DNA of 64,000 nt from the IMG/VR virus record IMGVR_UViG_3300037189_022865, positions 26,597-90,596 of that record, one strand, 5' to 3'. This document shows positions 4,730 through 21,914 of the stretch, piece after piece. The stretch comes from a virus. Position 1 is the stretch's first letter. Each line of letters opens with the position of its first letter. The translations under genes were made by a program, and so were the position numbers. The notes beneath the pieces were generated by a model. It saw nothing but the letters and a program-made list of their open reading frames with translations. It did no database searches and had not been told where the DNA came from.

Positions 4730-4975
4730 ATGGAAGCTATCTTTTTTGTCCTCTTATCAACGATCGCAGGTTCGTTGTTTAAGCACTATCTGGAGCCCGT
4801 GGTGTTAAACAAAGCGGCTCATCTTTTCCCTCAATCTAATATCTTTAACACAAAACCAGAAACAAAAGTAGAACCTACGGAGTTTAATAACGTAAGGTTT
4901 AAGCGCACTATCAATGGATATACAACAATCTATGTTTCGAGTCCAACACGGACAGATACAACCTACGTCAGGTAA
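4730..4975 (+). CDS. Small protein with one N-terminal membrane segment
   Basis: 81 residues. The start MEAIFFVLLSTIAGSLF is a likely single membrane segment or signal anchor; the rest is polar. Its place next to the peptidase gene suggests a lysis accessory (holin or spanin-like), but no family motif supports this. The 3' end overlaps the DNA polymerase start (ATG 4914) by 62 bases in another frame. Confidence 0.5.
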   Translation: MEAIFFVLLSTIAGSLFKHYLEPVVLNKAAHLFPQSNIFNTKPETKVEPTEFNNVRFKRTINGYTTIYVSSPTRTDTTYVR

Positions 4976-6794
4976 AGAACTCACCAAAGAGATCAAGTCC
5001 TGAGACATAATAGCTTTAGATACAGAGGTAACTGGAGATTTTGATAATATCTTTGATAGAAGAATTGTCATGCTGCAGTTTGGTAACAAAGAAGTTCAGT
5101 ACATTATAGACACAAGGAAAGCGGACCCTACTAAGCTCCTCAAAGAATTATCCAAGAAAAAGATCATAGGTCACAACATTAAGTTCGACTACCAAGTTAT
5201 AAAGACTAACTATGGGATTGAGCTTGAAGATCTATTCGATACCATGCTTGCAGCACAAATACTGGAGTGTGGGATGGATGAGGAGAAGGGACATTTTACC
5301 CTAGAGCAAACCGCTAGACGCTACACAGGGTATCACTACTACTCCAATCAAGGTAACTTATTTATTCCAGCAGTTACCAAAAAGATAAGGAGTTCTTTTT
5401 CTAGTATAGGAGATAAACCGTTTGAGTTAGAGCAGCTCTATTATGGAGCTCTTGACGTTTCGGTTGCATATCTCTTGTATGAGAAACAGAAGATTCAGCT
5501 TGAGAAAAATGAGCTTGAGTCAACAGCAGAGCTAGAGTTCAACTTCGTGAAAGTTCTTGCTGATATGGAATTGAGTGGTGTATATCTCAACCAAAAACAG
5601 TGGTTAGAGAATTATCGCAACACACTACAACAAACCGAAGAATTGCGAAAGAAACTGGAGGAGTATCAACAACTAAACTGAAACTCCCACAAGCAGGTTT
5701 TACCTGTACTCAAAGAGCTTGGTGTTGACGTGTCGATTATAGACAAGAAAACAGGTGAGATAAAGGAGTCTGTATCTCGCGAAGTCTTAAAGAAGCAAAC
5801 AGCTAAGGCTGGTATTCTGAAGACTTATCTTGACTATAAGCTTTCCCAAAAGGAATCATCTACCTATGGTGAAAAGTTTTTAAGGCACGTCAACCCAACT
5901 TCTCAAAGAGTTCACTCTTCTTATATGCAAATTATGAGAACTGGAAGAACTTCTTCTACTTCCCCTAATTGTCAATCTATTAAGAGGGGATCTATATACC
6001 GATCAGCATTTCAAGCTGAAGAAGGTAATACCTTTGTAGGTGCAGACTTCTCTAATATAGAAGCAAGGATACTCGCTGATAAGTCTAATGACGAAAACTT
6101 TATTAACATCTTTATAAACAATGGTGATTACCATTTAGAAACTGCTAAGCTAGCTTTTGATAATCCTAATCTAACCAAAGGATCTGAAGAAAGACAGTTA
6201 GCAAAGACTATTAACTTCGCAATTGCTTTTGGTGCTGGAGCTAAGAAAGTATCAGAAGGTGCTGGAGTTACTTTACAGAAAGGAAAAGAACTATTAAATA
6301 AAGTTTATACTGCTTTCCCAAAACTTAGTCCTTACTTTATAGAGATGGGTAATCTCACAAGGGAAAGAGGATATGTTGTGTGTAATGAAGTATCAAAAAG
6401 AAGAAGTTATATACCGTTTTATAATGAATACTTAGAAGCTAAGAAACATTATAACTACTTTAAAGCAATGGGTTGGGATCCTCATCCTACTATTGCATCA
6501 GCATATAAAACTTGGGATTCTAAAATACAAAGATGGTCACAAAACTTGCCTGTCCAAGCTACCGCTGCTGACATAGCAAAAGCCACCTGTATAGAACTCA
6601 GAGAGAAGTCTAAAAAAATTCCATTCAATCTCGTTTTATTCGTACATGACGAAGTTGTAGTAGAGTGCGAAAAAGAACGCGCAAACACTATATCTAAGCT
6701 TATTGAAAAAACAGGATTAGAATGCTCGAAAAAATTCCTGAATCATTTAACAGTCCCTGCAGAAGCACACGTATCTTCGCAGTGGGAAAAGTAA
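4914..6794 (+). CDS. polA: Family A DNA polymerase with 3'-5' exonuclease
   Basis: 626 residues, only intact if TGA at 5001-5003 (Trp30) and 5679-5681 (Trp256) are Trp. The N-terminal exonuclease domain starts with IIALDTEVTGDF (Asp36, Glu38: exo I DxE) and continues with a HNIKFDYQV exo II element. The polymerase domain has TGRTSS, motif A FVGADFSNIEAR (Asp ~378), motif B RQLAKTINFAIAFGAG (~428-443) and motif C FVHDEVVVE (~580). There is no 5'-3' exonuclease domain, as in T7-type and crAss-like replicative polymerases. It copies the phage genome with the primase and DnaB-like helicase encoded downstream. Start ATG 4914 is the first in frame; ATG 4932 is an alternative. Ends TAA four bases before the next gene. 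Confidence 0.93.
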
Positions 6795-8603: not shown

Positions 8604-9621
8604 AAGAACTCAAATGCAGGAGGAAGCAGTTGCCTCCTGAAAACAAAACAATGGATGGGGTACCCTGTTGATATATACGGGCGGGGGGAAGACACGATGC
8701 GGCTTAATGGCTTACCAAGATTTAGGCAAGCCCAGAACATTAGTAGTCACCTCCCGCCTGCCCATTCTAAACCAATGGAAAGAGGTTATGACAGGAACTA
8801 ATATAAAGTTTATGTGTATCCAATCTGCTTACAAACATAAAGGATATTACGATTTAGTTATAATAGATGAGGTTCATAGATCTTTATCACCTAAATATAG
8901 GGAAGTATTTAGCGGCATAAAAGCTAAGCATTTAATGTGCTTAACAGCCACACTTCCAGAAGAAGCAGAGTATGTAGAGTTCTTAGCTAAAACTTGTCCA
9001 GTAATTTATGAGAAGAAGCTAAAAGATGCTTTAAAGGATGAGATGGTTCCTCAGTTTGAGATATATAACTTTTCAGTACCTCTACACAAAACTATATCTG
9101 GTAAGTACAAACTCTTTGACAATAAGTTTACGCAGTCAATGATAAAACTTACTAGAACTCTAATGGATAATCCTAAACTGAAATCAAAATACAAAAATGT
9201 TTTTGAGTTAGCTCAAGCTGCTCAGTGGGCTTCTTTTGATAAGGAGACACAAGGATTATGTAAATCTTATTGGGCTGGAATGACTATGCGAAAGCAGTTA
9301 GTTTATTCTAATCCGGCGAAGCTAAAAGCAATTCGAGATATACTAAACCACATGGGGATGAGTCGCAAGTGGATAATCTTTACTAAGTCCATCGCATTTG
9401 CTAAAAGTTTGCAAGAGTATTTAGGAGGTAACACTGCTATATACCACTCAAAACTAAAACCAATAGAAAGAGAATTAAACTTAATAGCATTTGAACAAAA
9501 TCAGTTTAATATTCTTATAGCAGTTGACGCTTTAAACGAGGGATTAAATGTCTCCCAAGTAGAAGCAGCTATTTGTGCTGCTGGCGTATCCACAGAGTTA
9601 ACAAATTCCCAGCAGTTGGGT
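8596..9621 (+). CDS. SF2 DNA helicase, exon 1
   Basis: Starts at ATG 8596 (8-base overlap with the zinc-ribbon gene; ATG 8614 is an alternative). TGA 8638-8640 is Trp15 (AVASWKQNNGWG). A Q-motif-like RTQMQEEAV leads into Walker A YTGGGKT (27-33), and motif II is IIDEVHRS (DEVH, ~91-94). The second RecA-like domain carries WIIFTKSIAFAKSL (motif IV) and VDALNEGLNV (motif V). The exon ends after codon 342 in QQLG, inside motif VI. Splicing to CGA at 10473 restores QLGRIIRPEKGK. The protein is a DEAD/H-type ATP-dependent helicase of the phage UvsW/T5-D10 sort, expected to act on forks or recombination intermediates, and lies in the replication cluster between two zinc-finger genes. Confidence 0.88.
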
Positions 9622-9773
9622 CAGTAATTCGGCCCGTACCAAGTTAATTCGGTGAAGCCTAAGTCGAAAGATATGGTAATACCGAGCCAAGCAGGAAGAA
9701 ATTCCGGGCGTGTGTAGAGCACATCCCCTTTGTCGGGGAGTAGTGAAATATCTGATAAATATTTTGCGAAACA

Positions 9774-9805
9774 CTTGGAATTTATCAAAAATTGTTGTAC
9801 ATTTG
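9774..9805 (+). promoter_or_regulatory. Possible Bacteroidota-type promoter for the intron HNH gene
   Basis: TTGG at 9775-9778 and TACATTTG at 9798-9805 are 19 bases apart and fit the Bacteroides -33 TTTG / -7 TAnnTTTG pattern (second element exact, first with a mismatch). The predicted start of transcription falls at about the ATG (9810), implying a leaderless message. Confidence 0.3.
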
Positions 9806-9809
9806 TATA

Positions 9810-10439
9810 ATGGAAAATATAATATGGAAATCTATAGTAGGATCTTTACACTATTCAGTAAGTAATACTGGGTTAGTTAGGAGAGATTCTCATGAGAAAA
9901 TGCACAACATAAATAAAAAACCTTTCTTGACAAAAGAGAAAATATTAGCACCTAGCACAAATAACACTAAAGGGTATAAAAGGTTACTTATAAAATATCC
10001 ACAACGTATTAAAACTAAATCAGTTCACAGATTAGTGGCTGAAGCTTTTGTACCAAACTTGATGGCTAAACCTCAAGTAAATCATATTGATGGGGATATA
10101 TTAAATAATCACTGCTCTAATTTAGAGTGGGTAACTAATGATGAGAATGCTGAACACGCAGCAAGGACCAAAAAACGTAAGCACAAAAAAGGTTCTTCAG
10201 TTGTGTGGAGCAAACTTACTGAAAATGAAGTTGCACAAATACCAGAGTTATTACAAAAATTTAGTGTTGCTGAAATAGCTAAACAATTTAATGTTAGTAA
10301 ATCTCTTATTCACGAGATAATCGCTGGGAGGACTTGGAGGCACTTAAACCTCTTTGAGCCTAAAGCAAGAAAGTGTGAAAAGTATTTTGATAAATTAAGA
10401 TATGTGCCGACCACTGCTGAAAAGCAGGAAACTTCGTAG
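9810..10439 (+). CDS. HNH homing endonuclease within the intron
   Basis: 209 residues from ATG 9810 (IWKSIVGSLHYSVSNTG, a NUMOD4-type motif). The HNH core follows: SVHRLVAEAFVPN, QVNHIDGDILNNHCSNLEWV (His/Asn metal and catalytic residues), then a C-terminal helix-turn-helix (SVAEIAKQFNVSKSLIHEI) that should read the target site. It cuts intronless alleles at the helicase motif VI sequence so that the intron is copied in by repair. All Trp codons are TGG and it has no in-frame TGA, unlike most neighbours, which fits independent acquisition. Its 3' end overlaps the ribozyme P7 and later helices, so sequence there is under double constraint. Confidence 0.9.
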   Translation: MENIIWKSIVGSLHYSVSNTGLVRRDSHEKMHNINKKPFLTKEKILAPSTNNTKGYKRLLIKYPQRIKTKSVHRLVAEAFVPNLMAKPQVNHIDGDILNNHCSNLEWVTNDENAEHAARTKKRKHKKGSSVVWSKLTENEVAQIPELLQKFSVAEIAKQFNVSKSLIHEIIAGRTWRHLNLFEPKARKCEKYFDKLRYVPTTAEKQETS

Positions 10440-10472
10440 TCTAATCAACTACTATAAAGAAGTTTACAAAAG

Positions 10473-13360: not shown

Positions 13361-14337
13361 TGGAATATAGACACATATCCTATGGGGTTGATTCGGCCCT
13401 TAACTATATAGACAAGAGGAGAAAGGGCGAAATTGTGTCGCTTAAAACTTCCTTTAAAAAACTAAACAAAGCTCTAATGGCTGGCATTGACTGGGGTAGA
13501 ATAATGACTATTGCAGGTCAGTCAGGAGCAGGTAAATCTACCATACTAGAACAATTTAAAAAAGATTTCTTAGACCTTAACGAAACTAAATTTGAGATTT
13601 TATCGTTTGACTTCGAGATGTTAGTAGAGGATCAGATAGCTAGGTATCTAGCGTCTGTAAGAAACAAAACTCTTAAAGATATTTATTCAGCAAATACTCC
13701 TTTAGAAGATATAGAGTATGAAGCTATCAAGAATGTACTTGACGAAAGAAAGAAATCACCTATATTCTATGTAGATAATGCTGGTACTTCTGAGCAGATA
13801 CAAAAAACTATTCTTACCTTTGCGCAAGAAAGAGATTTATTAAACAAAAACTATGGTTTGGTTGTTACTATTGACCACGTTCTATTGACTAAAGGAAAGA
13901 CGGGAGAACAAGAGAAAGCAACAGTAGACTCTCTAATGGAGATGTTGAATGATGTGAAGAAATACTTTGCGCATATTGGCCTTAAATGTTTGATCATTTG
14001 TCTAGGTCAGTTAAATAGAGAGATTGAAAAAATGGATAGGGTAGACAACCCTTTGTATCACTTCCCAAATAGGAATGATATCTTTGCTGCCTCATCAATA
14101 TATCACACATCAGATTACGTTATAATAACACATAGACCATCAACCGTATCTGGAATAAAAGAAGGTTACGGTCCCCCAAGAAAAAACCACCCCAAAGGAT
14201 TACCACTAAAGTATCCGGGGGATGAAACAAGAGACATGATTTACTGGCATATTATTAAGGAAAGATTTGGTAAGCCGGGGATTATAGCATTAGCCGAAGA
14301 CTTTAAATTTTCTAAACTAGAAGAAGTAGAACTATAA
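13360..14337 (+). CDS. dnaB: DnaB-like replicative helicase (RecA-type core)
   Basis: 325 residues. Walker A is AGQSGAGKST (~49-58); ILSFDFEMLVEDQIARYLAS matches the DnaB H1a-type 'slEM' segment, and LVVTIDHVLLTKG is the Walker B region; later CLIICLGQLNREIE and DIFAASSIYHTSDYVI match motifs H3 and H4. The N-terminal primase-interacting domain of cellular DnaB is missing or very short, as in many phage versions. It should unwind DNA ahead of the PolA-type polymerase. Start TAATG-coupled to the upstream loader-like gene and stop TAATG-coupled to the Sak4 gene. Confidence 0.88.
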   Translation: MEYRHISYGVDSALNYIDKRRKGEIVSLKTSFKKLNKALMAGIDWGRIMTIAGQSGAGKSTILEQFKKDFLDLNETKFEILSFDFEMLVEDQIARYLASVRNKTLKDIYSANTPLEDIEYEAIKNVLDERKKSPIFYVDNAGTSEQIQKTILTFAQERDLLNKNYGLVVTIDHVLLTKGKTGEQEKATVDSLMEMLNDVKKYFAHIGLKCLIICLGQLNREIEKMDRVDNPLYHFPNRNDIFAASSIYHTSDYVIITHRPSTVSGIKEGYGPPRKNHPKGLPLKYPGDETRDMIYWHIIKERFGKPGIIALAEDFKFSKLEEVEL

Positions 14338-14651
14338 TGAACTTAGTACAAATCTCCGGAATGCCTGCTACCGGAAAAACAACAGGCGCTAGATTCTTAG
14401 ACCCTAAGAAAACTTATTACATAGATGCAGACGGTAAGGGACTATCTTGGAAAGGATGAAAGTCAGACTATAATTCTGAGAATAAGAATTATGCCAAGAC
14501 AACAGACATACCAACTATCTACAAACTTATCAAAACAATTTCAGAGAGCAAGCCAGATATTAACTGTATTGTTATAGATACTATTAACGCCATTATGACC
14601 ACCGAAGAAATGGAGATCTTAGAGAATCCATCTAGAGATCAGTGGAAGGAT
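14337..14651 (+). CDS. Sak4-like RecA-fold ATPase, exon 1
   Basis: 105 residues from ATG 14337. Walker A is SGMPATGKTT (7-16), Walker B CIVIDT (77-82). TGA 14457-14459 codes Trp41 (GLSWKGWKSDY), a position where this family usually has Trp. The exon ends after GAT in SRDQWKD; an in-frame TAG follows six bases into the intron. Joined to exon 2 it gives DQWKDLATSVWNL, the region between Walker B and sensor found in Sak4/AAA_24 proteins. The complete 220-residue product is expected to be a phage single-strand annealing or recombination ATPase, working with the ssDNA-binding protein next to it. Confidence 0.82.
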
Positions 14652-15521
14652 CAATAGCTAGGTCCTGTACCTGTCTAATTGCTGGAAACTCCTTAGAGTT
14701 TATTATACTACAAAGCAGCTTTGAAATATAGGCAAACTTGAATGTTAAAAAATAATAAAATTGGACAATCAGCAGCGAAGCTCCGAACAGGAGAACGTTC
14801 AGAGATCATCCCTCCGAAGGGGAGTAGGGAAATTATTTATTCCCGAAATGGCAGGACTTCGTAGATGTGTATATTGTTTAATAGACAGTTCTAATAATAG
14901 AATTAGATATATTGGTAAAACAGAATGCGCGTTATCAAAAAGATTAAGAGAGCATTTGCAAGACTCTAGAAGACATAATACTAAAGTCAGTAGGTGAGTG
15001 CACAATAGAGTAGATAACGGATATGATATAATAATGCGCCCATTAATATGTGATGTAGATTTAAATGTGTGAGAAAAAAGATTTATAAAAATCTTTAAAC
15101 ATAAGAACTTTAAACTATTAAATATGACTGATGGGGGCGGCGGTGTTTTAGGCACAAAGCAAACTGAGGAAACAAAGATTAAAAAGTCTTTAGCTCTTTC
15201 GGGTAAAAAGAAAAGCCCAGAACACATAGACAAAATGAGAAAAGCTTTTTCAAAAACAGCATTTGTTTACAACGCTGTAAATGGTAAGTTTGTAGGGGAG
15301 TATAGCTCATTTAAGCAAGCCAGCAAAGATTTGATAGTTAATCATACAGGACTACTTCTTTCCGCTAAATACGGAAGACATGTAAAAAACTACAGAGCTT
15401 TTTATACATATCAAGGAAATGTAATTCCAGTAAAACCAAAATACTATAAGAAAACATCTATTGAGAAATATATAAACGAAGAAGATATGATCCAAGCCCC
15501 GTAGAAATATGGGGATTCTTG
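14652..15521 (+). ncRNA. Group I self-splicing intron in the Sak4-like gene
   Basis: 870 bases. P1: the exon end GGAT|C pairs with GGTCC at 14671-14675, giving the U-G wobble at the splice site. Core elements are clear: P AATTGCTGGAAACTCC, Q GACAATCAGCAGCGAAGC (14764-14781) and R GTTCAGAGATCAT, whose GATCAT (14814-14819) pairs with ATGATC (15487-15492) to form P7. The intron ends in G 15521. Splicing joins GAT to TTA in frame. The core motifs look like subgroup IA as in T4- and SPO1-type phage introns. A GIY-YIG gene fills the region between the P7 strands. Confidence 0.88.
14848..15504 (+). CDS. GIY-YIG homing endonuclease within the intron
   Basis: 218 residues with TGA-Trp at 14995-14997 and 15070-15072. 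The N-terminal catalytic domain has CVYCLIDSSNNRIRYIGKT (GIY-YIG variant) and RLREHLQD with the conserved Arg. Downstream are a NUMOD3-type repeat (KKSLALSGKKKSPEHIDKM) and a NUMOD1-type helix-turn-helix (GEYSSFKQASKDL). It should cut intronless Sak4 genes near the insertion site. Start ATG 14848 is chosen because it immediately precedes the catalytic domain; the frame is open upstream to TTG 14761 through ribozyme core. The stop TAG lies inside the ribozyme, after the P7 3' strand. Confidence 0.85.
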
Positions 15522-15869
15522 TTAGCGACCTCAGTGTGGAATCTTTACAAAATGATGCGCGAAATTAAGCGAGACGATCTTGTCGTATTCGTTATGGCGC
15601 ACTGTGAACCATACGATGTCAATGGCATCACGCATTACCGAACAATGACAAACGGTAAGAAGCTTTCTAAAATTAATCTAAATGCTTTTCTAGCATACAA
15701 TCTATATACTAAAGTAACTAAAACCCCTGATAATAAATTTACCTACGATCTAATAACACAGTCTGATGGGACAACTGAGGCGAGAAGTGTTATGGGTGTT
15801 TTTGATCCTAAGATTGAGAACAACCTTGAGGTAATAAGAAAATCAGTCCTTGAGGCTGAAATTGGTTAA
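15522..15869 (+). CDS. Sak4-like RecA-fold ATPase, exon 2
   Basis: 115 residues starting LATSVWNLYKMMREI and continuing DLVVFVMAHCEP (sensor-1-like strand) and THYRTMTNGKKL, ending TAA. Matches the second half of the RecA-fold ATPase begun at 14337. No start codon is needed because splicing supplies the N-terminus; a TTG at 15519 spans the splice site. Confidence 0.82.
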   Translation, partial: LATSVWNLYKMMREIKRDDLVVFVMAHCEPYDVNGITHYRTMTNGKKLSKINLNAFLAYNLYTKVTKTPDNKFTYDLITQSDGTTEARSVMGVFDPKIENNLEVIRKSVLEAEIG

Positions 15870-16515: not shown

Positions 16516-16818
16516 GTGGGTAAAGAGTGGTTCGATTCCACTCATAAAAGCATGAAGACTTTATCTGAATTCATTAACGGTGATCCAAAGAAGCTCGAAG
16601 AACTTCTGAAGGTCAACCCCACTATTGGGGATTCCATTATAATAGGAACCTTTAGCTGTACTTTTATAGACAGCTTAGGAGAGACTATAAAACTAACTAA
16701 ACACTGGTTTATGTTCACTCGCTACTTCCACTTAAATATGGAGTCTCAGGCAGAGTGTTTTGTTATAGACAAGTATAAGGCTGAAAAAATAATAAGAATA
16801 AGAGTACATAAAAAATGA
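16516..16818 (+). CDS. Hypothetical protein, about 100 aa
   Basis: GTG 16516 or ATG 16552 may start it; the first 36 bases form two small hairpins, so the later ATG is plausible. Contains GDSIIIGTFSCTFIDSLGE and a Lys-rich end. The stop is TGA 16816-16818 in an ATGA overlap with the primase start; as Trp it would add 15 residues to TAA. Function unknown. Confidence 0.55.
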   Translation: MGKEWFDSTHKSMKTLSEFINGDPKKLEELLKVNPTIGDSIIIGTFSCTFIDSLGETIKLTKHWFMFTRYFHLNMESQAECFVIDKYKAEKIIRIRVHKK

Positions 16819-17783
16819 AGGCAATCTACTACACTGCTGATTGAAAAACCTCAGTAAACCAAGAGGCAGCGTTTGAATACTACATGGGGCAAAAGATAGT
16901 TCTTGGCAAGCTATACAAATCCCCATTACGAGAGGACAAGAATCCAACAGCAGCATTCTTCTATTCAGAGAGAGGCACACTCTACTTTAATGATTTTGGT
17001 ATAGCGAAGATGTACTCCGTTATAGACTTTGTTAAAGCCAAATTCAATTTAAATTACGAGCAGGCGCTAACTAAGATGATTGCAGATCTTCCGTTAATGA
17101 AAGACGGAGAGGTTACTGTTAAGGAAAAGGAACAAGTGTCTTACTCATTTACAAGACTTCCTATTGAGGATGGCATGTATTACTGGGATAAGTACAAAAT
17201 TCCTAAGCATATAGTCGCAAAATACAGCTTTTTTGCTAAAAATATTTATAGAAACGAAGAGTATTGGGCACGCTCAACAAAGAACAATCCGATTTTTGTT
17301 TACAAATTTCCTTCGGGGAATATCAAAATCTATCGTCCGCTAAGTGTGGACAAGTCCAAAAAGTGGGGAGGAAATGCGAACACTAAAGATATAGGTGGTC
17401 TATTTCAACTTCCTCAAAAGGGAAGTGTTTTGTTTATAACATCTTCTATCAAGGACATAATGGTCTTAAGACAACATGGGTTTAATGCTGTTTGCTTTAA
17501 CGGAGAAGGATATGGGACCTCTGATAAAAGTTACTCAGAATTACAACCGTTCATCGTTGGGCTTAAGAAAAGATTTAAACATATAATACTGTTTCTAGAC
17601 AGTGACGACGCTGGCGTAAGTTATGCGATGAAACTGTCCAATAAAATTAAATGTAAATGAGTTTCTCTCCCCAGAGAAAAGGACATCTCCGACTTCCAAA
17701 AGAAGTACGGCGTGCACAAGACCTTCAAACAGATCAAGAAATTGATCAAAAAAACAACCACACATGATAATCTCCCATTTTAA
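16815..17783 (+). CDS. DNA primase (Toprim type)
   Basis: 322 residues requiring TGA-Trp at 16842-16844 and 17658-17660. The N-terminal part has YKSPLREDKNPTAAFF and GTLYFNDFG, the usual start of phage DnaG-type primase after the zinc region, but the four-Cys zinc finger itself is absent. The Toprim core shows VLFITSSIKDIMVLRQHGF (with Glu replaced around SSIKD) and ILFLDSDDAGVSYA, the DxD metal site. It makes primers for the PolA-type polymerase. Starts in an ATGA overlap; ends 20 bases into the next gene. Confidence 0.82.
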
Positions 17784-18141
17784 ACGACTAGAGCTCGTTC
17801 TTATCTTCGGATTCTTTCTGATGCTCTCGTCTATCGCAATGTCCGTCGCAGTGATGGTAGATTTCTTCCAAGGAACTTCAGATAAACTGGATGTCCTCGT
17901 AAAAGACGCTTACTCTTCTAACACTACCTACGATGTGAATCTCATCGAGTATACCGATGGAAACGCGTACCACTACTGCATTCCAGCGGATCGTCAAACG
18001 GTTAAAGCGGGTATAGAAGAATTCAATATGCAGTGCGCGCTTGAATGCACAGAAAGCTGCCCAGATTCTATCAAGGTGATGCTGCTTGAAACAGTATTTG
18101 ATCAGCAACAAGTTCTAAAAGACACGATGATTTACAAATGA
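17764..18141 (+). CDS. Small membrane-anchored protein, 125 aa
   Basis: One membrane segment near the N-terminus (LVLIFGFFLMLSSIAMSVAVMV) is followed by a polar ~90-residue domain with four Cys (YHYCIP, MQCALECTESCP), which suggests an extracytoplasmic disulfide-stabilised domain. The stop is TGA 18139-18141 in an ATGA overlap with the UDG gene; read-through would add nine residues. Family not recognised. Confidence 0.6.
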   Translation: MIISHFKRLELVLIFGFFLMLSSIAMSVAVMVDFFQGTSDKLDVLVKDAYSSNTTYDVNLIEYTDGNAYHYCIPADRQTVKAGIEEFNMQCALECTESCPDSIKVMLLETVFDQQQVLKDTMIYK

Positions 18142-18797
18142 ACCACAGGAATATGTCACCCCTAACTGGGGAAAGCTGGGTATGGCCATTAGGAGAGGCT
18201 TTCGATGTCTTCAAAAAAGACATCATCCCTTTTATAGTGGAGGAAGAGAAAACCAAAACAATCTACCCTGCAACACACACCGTTTTTCGGGCTTTTAAAG
18301 AGATCCCATTCGAAGATGTGCGTGTAGTTATACTAGGCATGGACCCCTATCATGACGGAAGTGCGACTGGAATTGCTTTTGATAACCCTAAGAATGGAAA
18401 AATCTCACCATCGCTGAGAAACATTCTTAAGGAAATCGAAGAAGATACCGGCAAACCTTCCATTGGGTTTGACAATTCCTCATCGTATCTCGAGCACCTG
18501 CCATCTCAAGGAGTACTTCTCCTCAATACCGCCCTAACAGTAGAAAAGGGCAACCCAGGAAGCCATTTGGATACTTGGAAATCATTTACCTATAATGTAA
18601 TCAAAGCTCTCTCTAAAAAGGAAAAACTAATTTGGGTACTTTGGGGCAAAAAAGCTCAGAAGTTTAAACCAAATATTAATCCTAAGCATATTATAATAGA
18701 GAGTGCGCATCCCTCTCCATTCAGTTATCGACTGTTTAAAGGATGTAAATGTTTCACCCAAGTCAACGATAAGCTGGCTAAACCCATTATTTGGTAA
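18138..18797 (+). CDS. ung: Uracil-DNA glycosylase
   Basis: 219 residues, the usual length of family 1 UDG. The catalytic water-activating motif is LGMDPYHDG (Asp69; GQDPYH in most members), the Phe stacking and Asn region is QGVLLLNTALTVEKG, and the DNA-intercalation loop is HPSPFS (~194). It removes uracil from DNA, probably limiting dUTP misincorporation or cytosine deamination during replication. Starts in ATGA overlap; ends TAA overlapping the next ATG. It needs no TGA recoding. Confidence 0.92.
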   Translation: MNHRNMSPLTGESWVWPLGEAFDVFKKDIIPFIVEEEKTKTIYPATHTVFRAFKEIPFEDVRVVILGMDPYHDGSATGIAFDNPKNGKISPSLRNILKEIEEDTGKPSIGFDNSSSYLEHLPSQGVLLLNTALTVEKGNPGSHLDTWKSFTYNVIKALSKKEKLIWVLWGKKAQKFKPNINPKHIIIESAHPSPFSYRLFKGCKCFTQVNDKLAKPIIW

Positions 18798-19549
18798 TGA
18801 ACTTCTTCTTAGATCCAACGACCCGCAACCAAGTCAAATCCGCTGGCAGCCGTTTCCTCACTCCACCGTATCCATGTTCAGCCTGCTTCAATGGCGTTAT
18901 GGAGACAAGGTTGATAAAGCCCGTGCACGTGAATCCTCCTGCAGCAGTTAAGCTGACTCAGGACAAGACACGGCTCATGCAGGCTCTCAACAGGAATGAG
19001 ATCCCAGTCCCCGATTTCTTCAGCGCCGATAAGTACTACAACAAGAAGACTGGCGATTTCCTTGCCGGTGTATTCCTTGACGACTTTTCGTTCGATGACT
19101 TCATGGCTGTGGTAGTGAATCACGGTTTCCAGATGGAAATTGATGATTTGGTAAGCGCAGTCCAAGCAATGACCGGAATGCAAAACAGCCTGCCCAGCGC
19201 AGTAGTTCAGCGGAGAAACAAAGGAGAAGTGACCGGCACCGTCACTGCAATCCCAAATGGCGGAAACAAACTGTTTGATGGTAAGAACACCATCACCAAT
19301 GGAATCCTTCGCGAAAATCTGCCCTCCTTCCTGAAGGATGATTACCGTGAAGAGATCCTCGACACAGTGAACAGGGCGATTGATCTTCTCGATCTGGATT
19401 ACGCAACTGCCACAGTGTCCATCAATACCGACAGCCATGAAGTGCTTGTTGTGGACATCAGCACCAACTTCGTGCCAGATGATGCCATCGCAATCCGATA
19501 TTACATGGATGAGCTGAACAAGGCCCAGTCAAACAAAAAGAAGAAATGA
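18797..19549 (+). CDS. ATP-grasp-like protein
   Basis: 250 residues from ATG 18797 (TAATG overlap). The segment VNPPAAVKLTQDKTRLMQAL followed by NEIPVPDFF is the standard entry into an ATP-grasp domain (Asn-Pro, then dK, then 'gIPvP'), and AIDLLDLDYATATVSINTD plus LVVDISTNF resembles the catalytic strand with its metal-binding acid/Asn pair. Related enzymes join carboxylates to amines using ATP (RimK or YheC/D-like). The N-terminus has a CxxC (PYPCSACF). Base composition is noticeably more GC-rich than the A/T-rich genes just upstream of 15500. Substrate unknown. The end is TGA 19547-19549 in an ATGA overlap. Confidence 0.6.
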   Translation: MNFFLDPTTRNQVKSAGSRFLTPPYPCSACFNGVMETRLIKPVHVNPPAAVKLTQDKTRLMQALNRNEIPVPDFFSADKYYNKKTGDFLAGVFLDDFSFDDFMAVVVNHGFQMEIDDLVSAVQAMTGMQNSLPSAVVQRRNKGEVTGTVTAIPNGGNKLFDGKNTITNGILRENLPSFLKDDYREEILDTVNRAIDLLDLDYATATVSINTDSHEVLVVDISTNFVPDDAIAIRYYMDELNKAQSNKKKK

Positions 19550-20013
19550 GAACCCGCAATAACCTCGAGGAATTCGCTTGAGAACAACTAACGAAGGAGG
19601 GGATAACTTTTGAGTACGAAAAGGAAATTGAGTTATTCCCTTCCTTTGTTTTTAAAGGAATTGACATCGAAAAGAGAAACAAACAACTTAAAGTAAAGAA
19701 CAACAAGTATCAAAATATTGTATATTCTCCAGACTTTAGCGGAAAGAATTGAGTAATTGAGACAAAGGGTCTTAGGAGGCCCGCATTTGACCTGAGATGA
19801 AAGATCTTTAAGTATACGATAAAGAATAAGGGGTGATTACTATTAATGCCTACAAACCAAAAAGAGGTGTTAGTATGTATAGATATATTAAAAAAGTGAA
19901 TAAAGAATGATAGAGAATGATCCGATAACAGAATATTACAAATCTCCGAGAATATCCAACTCCCTGCTAAAAGCAATCGCAAATCCAAGAATACTAAAAC
20001 TAAAGAAGGATAA
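19546..20013 (+). CDS. PD-(D/E)XK endonuclease (DUF1064-like), six TGA-Trp codons
   Basis: Hidden under the standard code, because TGA occurs after 11 codons. Read with TGA as Trp the protein contains FEYEKEIELFPSF, VYSPDFSGKNWVIETKG and LRWKIFKYTIKNKGW. The D...ExK pattern (PDF, IETK) matches phage DUF1064-type endonucleases of the PD-(D/E)XK superfamily, often Holliday-junction or recombination nucleases. All six Trp positions use TGA and none uses TGG. The 3' end is uncertain: the frame runs to TAA 20011-20013, but the last ~30 codons overlap the exonuclease gene and TGA 19918-19920 could be the true end, giving 124 residues. Confidence 0.7.
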
Positions 20014-20920
20014 CCCAGAACTATTTGAAGATGACTCGGCTTCTTTAAGAATAGGCTCAGCAGTAGACTGTTTATTAACAGATCCTAAAGCCTGAGTTAG
20101 TAAGTTTAAAGTACTCGAAGTAAATAAGCCTTATGGCTTTATGGGCACATTTGTTTCTAACTTACCTAAGGGAATAACTAAAGACTCTCCTAAGGAAGAT
20201 TACATGAGTGCTTACTGAATGAGTGGTTATAAGATGAGTGCTGATTGGGTGATTAATAAGTTCTGAACTTCACCAGACGCTGTTGAATACTATAATACTT
20301 ATAAAGAAGATGGGTATACAATTTTATCTAAAGATGAATACGACTCAGCTAAAAAGGCTGTATCTTTAGTTATGGATTCACCCTACGCATTTTCATACTT
20401 TCAAAGAAATAAAATACATGAAGAATTACTTCACCAAGTACCTATATATTTTACTCTTAAAGATCATGAGTTTAAAGCTCTCTTGGATGGGATTAAGATC
20501 GACCACCAAGAAAAAACTATAGAGCCTTTTGATCTAAAAACAATAGGGAAATCTGTTTATGAATTCCCACTTAACTATATTCTATATGGCTACTACACAC
20601 AAGCTGCTTTATATGAGTATGCTTTAAAGACAAAAGAGTCTCCAGTGTATGATCTACTTCAAGAAGGTTATACTCTAAAGGACTTTATCTTTATAGTAGC
20701 TGAGACTAAAACCTCATCTTTTAATCCCGCTTTAATCTACACTACCTCTAAGGAGGAGAGAGAAGCTGGGTTTACTGGAGGTAACTTTAATAACAAATAC
20801 CATAAAGGGATTTACCAACTTCTTGAGGATTATCTTTGGCATGTGGAAACTGACCAATGAATATACCCTAGAGAAATCTATCAAAATGAAGGGAGGATAC
20901 CCCTTAAAGTATTCACCTAA
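19907..20920 (+). CDS. RecB/Exo VIII-like PD-(D/E)XK exonuclease
   Basis: 337 residues joined through four TGA-Trp codons (20093-20095 and three more, the last at 20858-20860, shortly before TAA 20918-20920). The start ISNSLLKAIANPRIL and LRIGSAVDCLLTDP are typical of YqaJ/Exo VIII-like nucleases, and the catalytic site is FKALLDGIKID...EPFDLKTIG (Asp, Asp-x-Lys), followed by YTQAALYEYAL with the conserved Gln-Tyr helix. It should resect double-strand ends for recombination with the Sak4-like and SSB-like proteins. Confidence 0.8.
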
Positions 20921-20950: not shown

Positions 20951-21568
20951 ATGACACATAATCACGCAGTAAGCACCTACTTTATTTCTCCAATCTTTGA
21001 ACTGCGCAAGAACGAACCCCTCAGCGTTTTTGATAAAGCCTTCTATACACAGACATATCTTGGTGACCATCAGCGTCCCGAGTATCGTAACTGAAAGGAA
21101 GGTAAGTATTTCATAATGGAGTACAACTCTAACATTCCTCAGGAACTTGTGGAGCACCTTAAATCAAATCCACATTTTAAAGAGCAGTATTCACCGCAGG
21201 ATGGAAGAATACTCTTTGTGTTCTCTACACCGGAAGAGGTAAGAGAGAACTTTGTCCTTAAAGTTATTGAGGGCAAATATTCTGAGGCAGATCGGAAAGT
21301 GGTAGACAAATACTTCCCTGATAATCCATCACACTCCCGCTACGGAAATAGGCTAGTTTTCCTAAAGAGCGATTTGTGGAAGCAAAGATGGGAGCGAGAG
21401 ATAGGAGTTGTGTTGCCTGATGGTGCGGAAGTATATAGCAAACCATTTCCACGTAATGAAGTATATGGATACTATAACGACAGTGTCGAACTGAATGAGA
21501 AGGTCGCAGATCAAACTACGATCGAATTGGACCTTTCTCACGAGGATTACGAACTGAAATCGGCTTAA
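20951..21568 (+). CDS. Hypothetical protein, 205 aa
   Basis: ATG 20951 follows an A-rich leader; TGA 21091-21093 is Trp48 (RPEYRNWKEGKYF), so the shorter frame starting at 21116 is not the full gene. Charged and soluble, with two Trp-rich turns (FLKSDLWKQRWEREIG). No domain recognised. Ends TAA, overlapping the following gene. Confidence 0.65.
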
Positions 21569-21914
21569 GCTGATCGGGCGGTATGATAATCTCAAAGATC
21601 TATCGCTAAATGAACTCGGGTTAAGTGAAAAAGACCTCTATGAATTAGAGGAAGTAAGGAGGGATAAGAAGACGTTTATACTTAAATCAATTGAACGCTC
21701 TTCCCCTTCTTTCGGAAGATTCATGTCCCAGGCTTACATTTATTATGAGACCGCAAAAAGCAAGAATAAGAAAGCTTTTGAGTCGGAGACTAAGAGTACG
21801 GTTGTGAAAAGACTGACTAAAAAGATCCACAAACTAAACGCCGAAACGTCACGAGTGCAGGACATTATGTCCATAGTTGTCGATCTTTACTTATTCTCAA
21901 GGGCTAAAAATTAG
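21495..21914 (+). CDS. Hypothetical basic helical protein
   Basis: A frame open through TGA-Trp at about 21558 to TAG 21912-21914. The part that looks coding starts near RYDNLKDLSLNELGL and is strongly helical and Lys-rich (SKNKKAFESETKSTVVKRL). The only ATG that reaches it upstream is 21495, which overlaps the previous gene by 74 bases; a nonstandard start such as CTG near 21573 is possible. ATG 21723 would give just 63 residues. Function unknown. Confidence 0.5.

Follow-up and report, generated by a model that had tools for sequence, protein, structure and literature searches.

TGA codons read as tryptophan, probably through into an overlap with the exonuclease gene, in a nuclease gene of a crAss-like phage

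The gene at positions 19546-20013 of the window (the whole 64,000-nucleotide stretch analyzed, i.e., bases 26597-90596 of a 90,596-b virus record, hereafter G000) is best explained as encoding a live PD-(D/E)XK-type nuclease, all six in-frame TGA codons of which would be read as tryptophan, with translation probably passing through those at residues 118 and 125 to reach the TAA at 20011-20013, a reading to which, judging from the sequence comparisons laid out below, a probability of roughly 0.8 can be given. The code-4 translation has TGA at residues 12, 69, 85, 97, 118 and 125 and lacks TGG altogether, exactly as had been counted in an earlier, sequence-only reading of this DNA, and the claim made there that a DUF1064-like nuclease lies hidden under the standard code is likewise borne out, no code-11 ORF of at least 100 aa being present over 19546-20013 and the code-4 ORF being 19546..20013. 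Annotation under the standard code would miss the nuclease altogether and would cut the polymerase, the primase and the terminase. The use of TGA for Trp in crAss-like phages is already known, the usual account being that recoding delays late genes (phage stop-codon recoding was reportedly also studied by Borges in 2022); what seems to be new is that the nuclease gene overlaps that of the exonuclease and that TGA sits on the replication side.

As crAss-type homologues were found for TerL (phrog_6681), portal (phrog_6547), DNA polymerase A, primase and exonuclease VIII, and Crassvirales records are among the best matches of the exonuclease and PolA, G000 is, judging by its gene homologues, a crAss-like phage (Crassvirales); a near-exact DNA match of window positions 1-25000 was not found in “phages”. 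The relatives compared for the nuclease are G001, which holds a near-identical locus (L002), G005 and G007, with ~60% and 46% nuclease identity to G000, respectively, G003, G017, and G018, a contig from a Dependentiae MAG whose nuclease gene has 0 TGA and 2 TGG. L005, a weak fourth hit, was set aside as a match by chance, since the frames open in it encode other proteins. TGA shares were calculated over code-4 ORFs having a relative among G000, G005, G007 and G017 (all others were dropped), and the record-wide TGA:TGG count of G000 over 49 hand-listed genes. Starts were left uncurated, except that in the hand list the start of the uracil-DNA glycosylase-like (UDG) gene was moved to 18138, which removes the 3 TGA of an N-terminal extension, and the gene starting at 18791 was ended at its own TGA; the frame 21408-21914 is absent from the hand list and present in the relative-based comparisons. 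Coordinates of the features are given in Table 1.

Table 1. Nuclease locus, replication-block genes, UCA tRNAs and tmRNAs (plain numbers are window positions; Trp codons are counted as TGA and TGG).
Feature	Genome	Coordinates	Strand	Remarks
DNA polymerase A	G000	4914..6794	+	replication block; 2 TGA, 5 TGG
DNA primase-like	G000	16815..17783	+	replication block; 2 TGA, 3 TGG
Uracil-DNA glycosylase-like (UDG)	G000	18138..18797	+	same block; 0 TGA, 6 TGG from assumed start
Gene upstream of nuclease	G000	18791..19549	+	homologue-supported end TGA 19547-19549; ATGA junction with nuclease start
Nuclease	G000	19546..20013	+	DUF1064 / Crassvirales Holliday-junction-resolvase-like; 155 aa with TGA = Trp; stop TAA 20011-20013
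TGA, W12	G000	19579..19581	+	Tyr in 80/81 homologue rows; W in G007, Ala in G005
TGA, W69	G000	19750..19752	+	W 39, F 40, gap 2 of 81 homologue rows
TGA, W85	G000	19798..19800	+	W 76, E 3, gap 2 of 81 rows; TGG in G005
TGA, W97	G000	19834..19836	+	Tyr in 69/81 rows; TGG in near-identical L002
TGA, W118	G000	19897..19899	+	at end of helix 105-119; Leu in 62/81 rows; TGA in G005 also
TGA, W125	G000	19918..19920	+	within exonuclease overlap; beyond 79/81 rows; TGA in G005 also
Overlap, 107 b	G000	19907..20013	+	nuclease tail and exonuclease N-terminus in different frames; looks doubly constrained
Exonuclease VIII-like	G000	19907..20920	+	337 aa; phrog_412; DUF3799 below cut-off; 4 TGA, 2 TGG
UCA (opal) tRNA	G000	about L006:7643-7737	-	long variable arm, G73, mismatch atop anticodon stem (ARAGORN)
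tmRNA	G000	L006:8560-8808	-	outside window; Rfam 62.9 bits, cut-off 47; 30-residue tag ending ELVYA
tmRNA	G005	L143:8478-8758	+	Rfam 54.6 bits, cut-off 47; 33-residue tag ending YQYA
UCA tRNA	G005	L143:9099-9175	+	ordinary shape, short variable arm; ~0.3 kb from tmRNA, structural strand

The D...ExK motif that had been said to be retained is indeed there, D63, E72 and K74 each occurring in 79 of the 81 aligned homologue rows, with gaps in the other 2 (the family rows were drawn from searches giving the best 80 of 525 and the best 80 of 223, plus ten phage records, and in the 81-row alignment L154, which is G003, and L158, which is G017, are cut at their own TGA). Since the match to PF06356 (DUF1064; E 6.2e-4, 20.6 bits) falls under the curated cut-off of 24.7, the protein is filed as a homologue and not as a curated DUF1064 member. 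It also matches phrog_190, “Holliday junction resolvase” (E 0.0066), and, by tblastn, annotated Crassvirales Holliday junction resolvases with E down to 1e-12, as in the case of cr115_1 YP_010113055.1 (37% identity over residues 1-116, E 1e-12); the D, E and K residues are common to the G000 nuclease and the Crassvirales resolvases, and, as here, a primase is found just upstream of the cr115_1 gene and an exonuclease close by in other Crassvirales. The AlphaFold model (mean pLDDT 85.6) shows the order helix-strands-helix-strand, block means being 91-97 for residues 11-120, except for 82 in 71-80. As for T7 endonuclease I (PDB 1m0d, 3cae), short stretches of it match the family profile (4 sequences; E 4e-6 to 4e-5); Foldseek with the nuclease model gave 0 PDB matches at E <= 0.001, with 3cae at E 0.3. 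The predicted activity would be the cleavage of Holliday junctions or branched DNA in replication/recombination.

That TGA is read as Trp in G000, as the sequence-only reading had assumed, seems to be a well-supported recoding of a known kind, for four of the six nuclease TGA stand in aromatic family columns (Y at residue 12, W/F at 69, W at 85, Y at 97), and an identical 155-aa protein is encoded by L002 using five TGA and, at residue 97, a TGG. The nuclease genes of G000 and G003 differ in 4 codons, all of them synonymous when TGA is translated as Trp and one of them TGA/TGG, and the same exchange is also seen between these two genomes in the primase, in 70959-72926 and in 83628-85013; two structural-strand TGA differences from G003 involve codons other than TGG, namely GCA (70959-72926) and GGA (85433-86116), and two TGA in the N-terminal extension of the UDG gene, which is taken to be false, align with GCG and CAA there. 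Aligned with G005, G007 and G017, the TGA codons of G000 give 83 cells (up to three per codon, one per relative, and therefore not independent), which hold W 25, TGA 20, Y 11, G 5, L 4, F 3, gap 3, S 2, D 2, I 2 and six others once each, 24/83 being neither W, TGA, Y nor F; the profile of the TGG codons is close to this one (392 cells: W 158, F 39, Y 36, L 29, TGA 25, and others). Reading TGA as Gly (code 25) was rejected, Gly occupying 5/83 of the aligned cells vs W 25 and TGA 20. Nuclease TGA codons are also present in G005, G007 and G017, which fits the long-standing recoding that had been proposed.

The 107-b overlap with the exonuclease gene and the position of codon 125 at 19918-19920 had been noted correctly, whereas the suggestion that the end of the gene is ambiguous, with TGA 19918 as the sole alternative stop, does not hold up as well: TGA 19897 (codon 118) had gone unmentioned, and both codons are, as far as the comparisons go, most likely sense, given that relatives have overlapping tails and that the tail frame shows more conservation than the exonuclease alone would impose (an argument that is weak against G018). 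Overlaps in the same phase are found in G000 (107 b), G005 (149 b), G007 (131 b) and G018 (125 b), G007 and G018 having no stop at the place of codons 118/125 in any code. When the exonuclease protein was held fixed and its synonymous codons were redrawn, the chance of an open tail frame (no TAA/TAG) was 0.013 in G000, 0.017 in G005 and 0.023 in G007, and that of a frame without a stop of any kind was 0.0054 in G018. For the pairs G000/G005, G000/G007 and G005/G007, in this order, the tail frames were more alike than the redraws both in similarity (P 0.0004, 0/5000 and 0/5000) and in identity (P 0.0068, 0/5000 and 0.0008). In sliding windows along the exonuclease, the z of the tail frame reached 4.8, 5.2 and 4.5 in the overlap and was mostly within +/-2 elsewhere (max 3.2), the third frame being raised in the overlap too (z 2.4, 2.5 and 3.8). 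Where the exonuclease residue was identical, so was its codon in 12/20, 6/15 and 5/13 cases in the overlap vs 66/161, 60/135 and 52/135 outside it, which is no clear excess of plain synonymous conservation; against G018 the overlap z was only 1.6-2.2, with a peak of 3.2 elsewhere in G005/G018. By these comparisons, the signal of selection on the tail frame is strong among G000, G005 and G007 but unclear outside this trio.

The alternative that survives best, and still an unlikely one, is that TGA is read both ways, codons 12-97 being suppressed to Trp and 118 or 125 acting mainly as a stop, which would give a 117- or 124-aa nuclease and an occasional longer product. It would be in line with the family habit: residue 118 is the last one in 62/81 rows, and a 117-aa product would retain the catalytic body. 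The model block means also fall from 92 (111-120) to 70, 75, 59 and 53; TGA 118 and TGA 125 are common to G000 and G005, as would be expected of retained stops; the nuclease/exonuclease overlap is absent from G017; and a TGA stands at the homologue-supported end of the gene upstream, where it is a candidate residual TGA stop (the hand list has TAA 39, TAG 9 and TGA 1 as stop codons, a biased count, since code-4 ORFs cannot end in TGA). The usual family stop, however, is codon 119, TGA 118 lying one codon before it, and the two-way reading is at odds both with G007 and G018, which carry a tail whatever the code, and with the open tail frame conserved in G000, G005 and G007. In the Crassvirales resolvase family at large, 76/81 rows stop at residues 117-126 without the overlapping tail of G000, and a TGA precedes the first TAA/TAG in 12/88 unique rows (the three of the G000 group included), some of these being plain stops. 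If, as we prefer, both codons are read as Trp, translation would add a ~37-residue C-terminal tail overlapping the exonuclease start, any role of which would be putative, and the nuclease would illustrate how a recoded codon can lie in a stretch that codes for two proteins.

The complete replacement of TGG had also been ascribed to selection that loads the gene with TGA and thereby blocks its expression until suppression is available, which we consider improbable. The per-gene count that had been called for gives 40:185 TGA:TGG over the 49 hand-listed genes of G000 and 6:0 for the nuclease, and a gene with at least 5 Trp codons, all TGA, arises in just 0.085% of 20,000 Trp-codon shuffles with the whole pool and in 0.6% with the + strand pool (P 0.0009 to 0.006). 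Codon 125 is not free to vary, its third base also serving as the middle one of a GAT codon of the exonuclease, which makes 5/5 free codons the fair count. Nor does base bias explain the all-TGA Trp codons, since the other third positions of the nuclease are not A-rich (in five further codon pairs ending in A/G, the A-ending share is 0.51). Among genes with at least 3 Trp, ties included, the nuclease has the highest TGA share in G000 (of 29) and in G005 (of 27), but it ranks only 7/18 in G007 and 4/34 in G017, its TGA:TGG being 4:1 in G005, 1:3 in G007 and 1:2 in G017. TGG at the same sites in relatives, which together with an unchanged expression pattern had been named as telling against the idea, is found in part: at residue 97 in L002, at 85 in G005 and at the positions corresponding to 69 and 85 in G007. 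Moreover, the polymerase, the primase, the exonuclease and TerL (4 TGA, 5 TGG) carry TGA as well and, therefore, also need UGA decoding. The nuclease heads a broad TGA distribution, and a block specific to this gene is not indicated.

The comparison of early and late genes that had been proposed could be made by strand, the replication and structural roles of the strands being putative assignments from annotated homologues and synteny. The TGA fraction of Trp codons on the replication vs the structural strand is 23/79 vs 13/133 in G000 (P 0.012), 18/59 vs 0/66 in G007 (P <1e-4), 14/80 vs 9/140 in G017 (P 0.007) and 16/76 vs 23/120 in G005 (P 0.41; one-sided permutations of gene labels, 20,000 shuffles each), so that a TGA-richer replication block is seen in 3/4 genomes and the two strands of G005 are about equal. 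The enrichment in G000 persists without the nuclease (Fisher P 0.013); in G007, TGA is carried by 13/19 replication-strand and 0/12 structural-strand genes with Trp codons, and the structural genes of G000, G005 and G017 still hold some TGA. Base composition was rejected as the cause of this gradient, TGA share and A-ending share being poorly correlated (Spearman -0.002 over 14 + strand genes and -0.25 over 13 - strand genes) and the structural strand of G000 being more A-ending (0.78 vs 0.62) yet less TGA-bearing.

In the portions consulted of the reports on crAss-like phages with TGA=Trp (PMC7886860, Yutin 2021; PMC12386605, Lera phage), recoding is placed mostly in late or structural genes, whereas in G000, G007 and G017 the TGA share is higher in the replication block; opal tRNAs are described there for some genomes and not for others. 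Judged by titles and abstract openings, none of the open PubMed Central papers among the matches listed reports the reverse, replication-side pattern. If TGA is commonest in the replication block, UGA would have to be decodable already when the replication proteins are made. It is, thus, tentatively suggested, the odds still leaning somewhat against it, that in the crAss-like group of G000 TGA=Trp is mainly a feature of replication genes, opposite to the late-gene model, with UGA decoded from the start of infection (by the host, or by an early or packaged phage tRNA), in which case UGA would gate genome replication and not lysis/assembly. TGA in replication genes, together with an opal tRNA that lies on the structural strand or is not detected, is a misfit with the late-gene account and makes that account testable.

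UGA would be read either by a tRNA-Trp of the host or by the opal tRNA that the phage itself encodes, which in G000 is ~0.8 kb from the tmRNA, both being on the structural strand. A UCA tRNA is present in G000, G002 and G005 (the G001 and G003 records are without that stretch) and was not recognized in the G007 or G017 records, which may be fragments; in one G007 tRNA the anticodon loop is enlarged. The opal tRNA of G000 lacks the typical Trp shape and is labeled tRNA-SeC(tca) by ARAGORN, and it is from this label, the long variable arm and a 38.9-bit match to Rfam tRNA-Sec that a decoding of TGA as serine or selenocysteine could be argued. Such a decoding is very improbable, however: the score falls short of the cut-off (47), all 14 control genomes give matches to this model as well (above the cut-off in only 5), the UCA tRNA near the tmRNA in G005 has a short variable arm, and the residues aligned with TGA are mostly W, Y and F, with Ser in just 2/83. 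The blastn matches of the long-arm tRNA against phages were partial and weak, including Arg, Trp and Ser tRNAs among the best 10 of 38. Two related phages, G000 and G005, thus have differently built opal tRNAs, both near a tmRNA. The tmRNA tags of G000 and G005, of 30 and 33 residues, are long, whereas the usual tag is short, with an LAA-type end. Neither a TrpRS-type synthetase (PF00579) nor a release factor (PF00472) was found in any of the 4 records (0/4 each; controls positive in 14/14 and 10/14, respectively); these are named as accessory parts in the part of PMC10746230 consulted and are not required of a TGA=Trp phage. A bacterial route of reading UGA by a tRNA-Trp with a 4-bp stem appears in the part consulted of PMC13092985.

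A hairpin around GTCGTAAGAT recurs at G000 7772 (-), 17146 (+) and 17245 (+), G005 49075 (+) and G017 44482 (-), the stem of each copy being complementary in its own way; in both G000 and G005, one copy immediately precedes the opal tRNA. The motif search gave five further matches without such a stem.

That the gene is a decaying pseudogene, open only by code 4, is scarcely credible: its six interruptions in the standard code would suit such a view, but the motif residues are intact, all the differences from G003 are synonymous, and an orthologue with a TGA/TGG exchange is retained in G005.

Several further features of these records deserve mention. The MAG Candidatus Dependentiae AWTP1-30 (L228, L229) holds a contig with a crAss-like TerL and a separate contig with the nuclease/exonuclease overlap, which may possibly be either a host lead or misbinning; assigning a host by the bin was rejected: one TerL relative is in a Dependentiae MAG, a bin is no proof, and no host is claimed. 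About 850 b of the G000 window (9620-10472) are without a counterpart in G001, G002 and G003, where the flanks are adjacent. Within 14337-15869 of the window, a single 219-aa gene of G005 is matched, one half each, by two ORFs, and what separates these, the TGA-containing ORF 14761-15504, has the look of an inserted element. A Pistol match below the cut-off (30.7 bits vs 34.5) is seen at L006:13376-13434 (+) of G000, and a type-P3 twister ribozyme (48.1 bits vs a cut-off of 39.9) at L006:16463-16526 (+).
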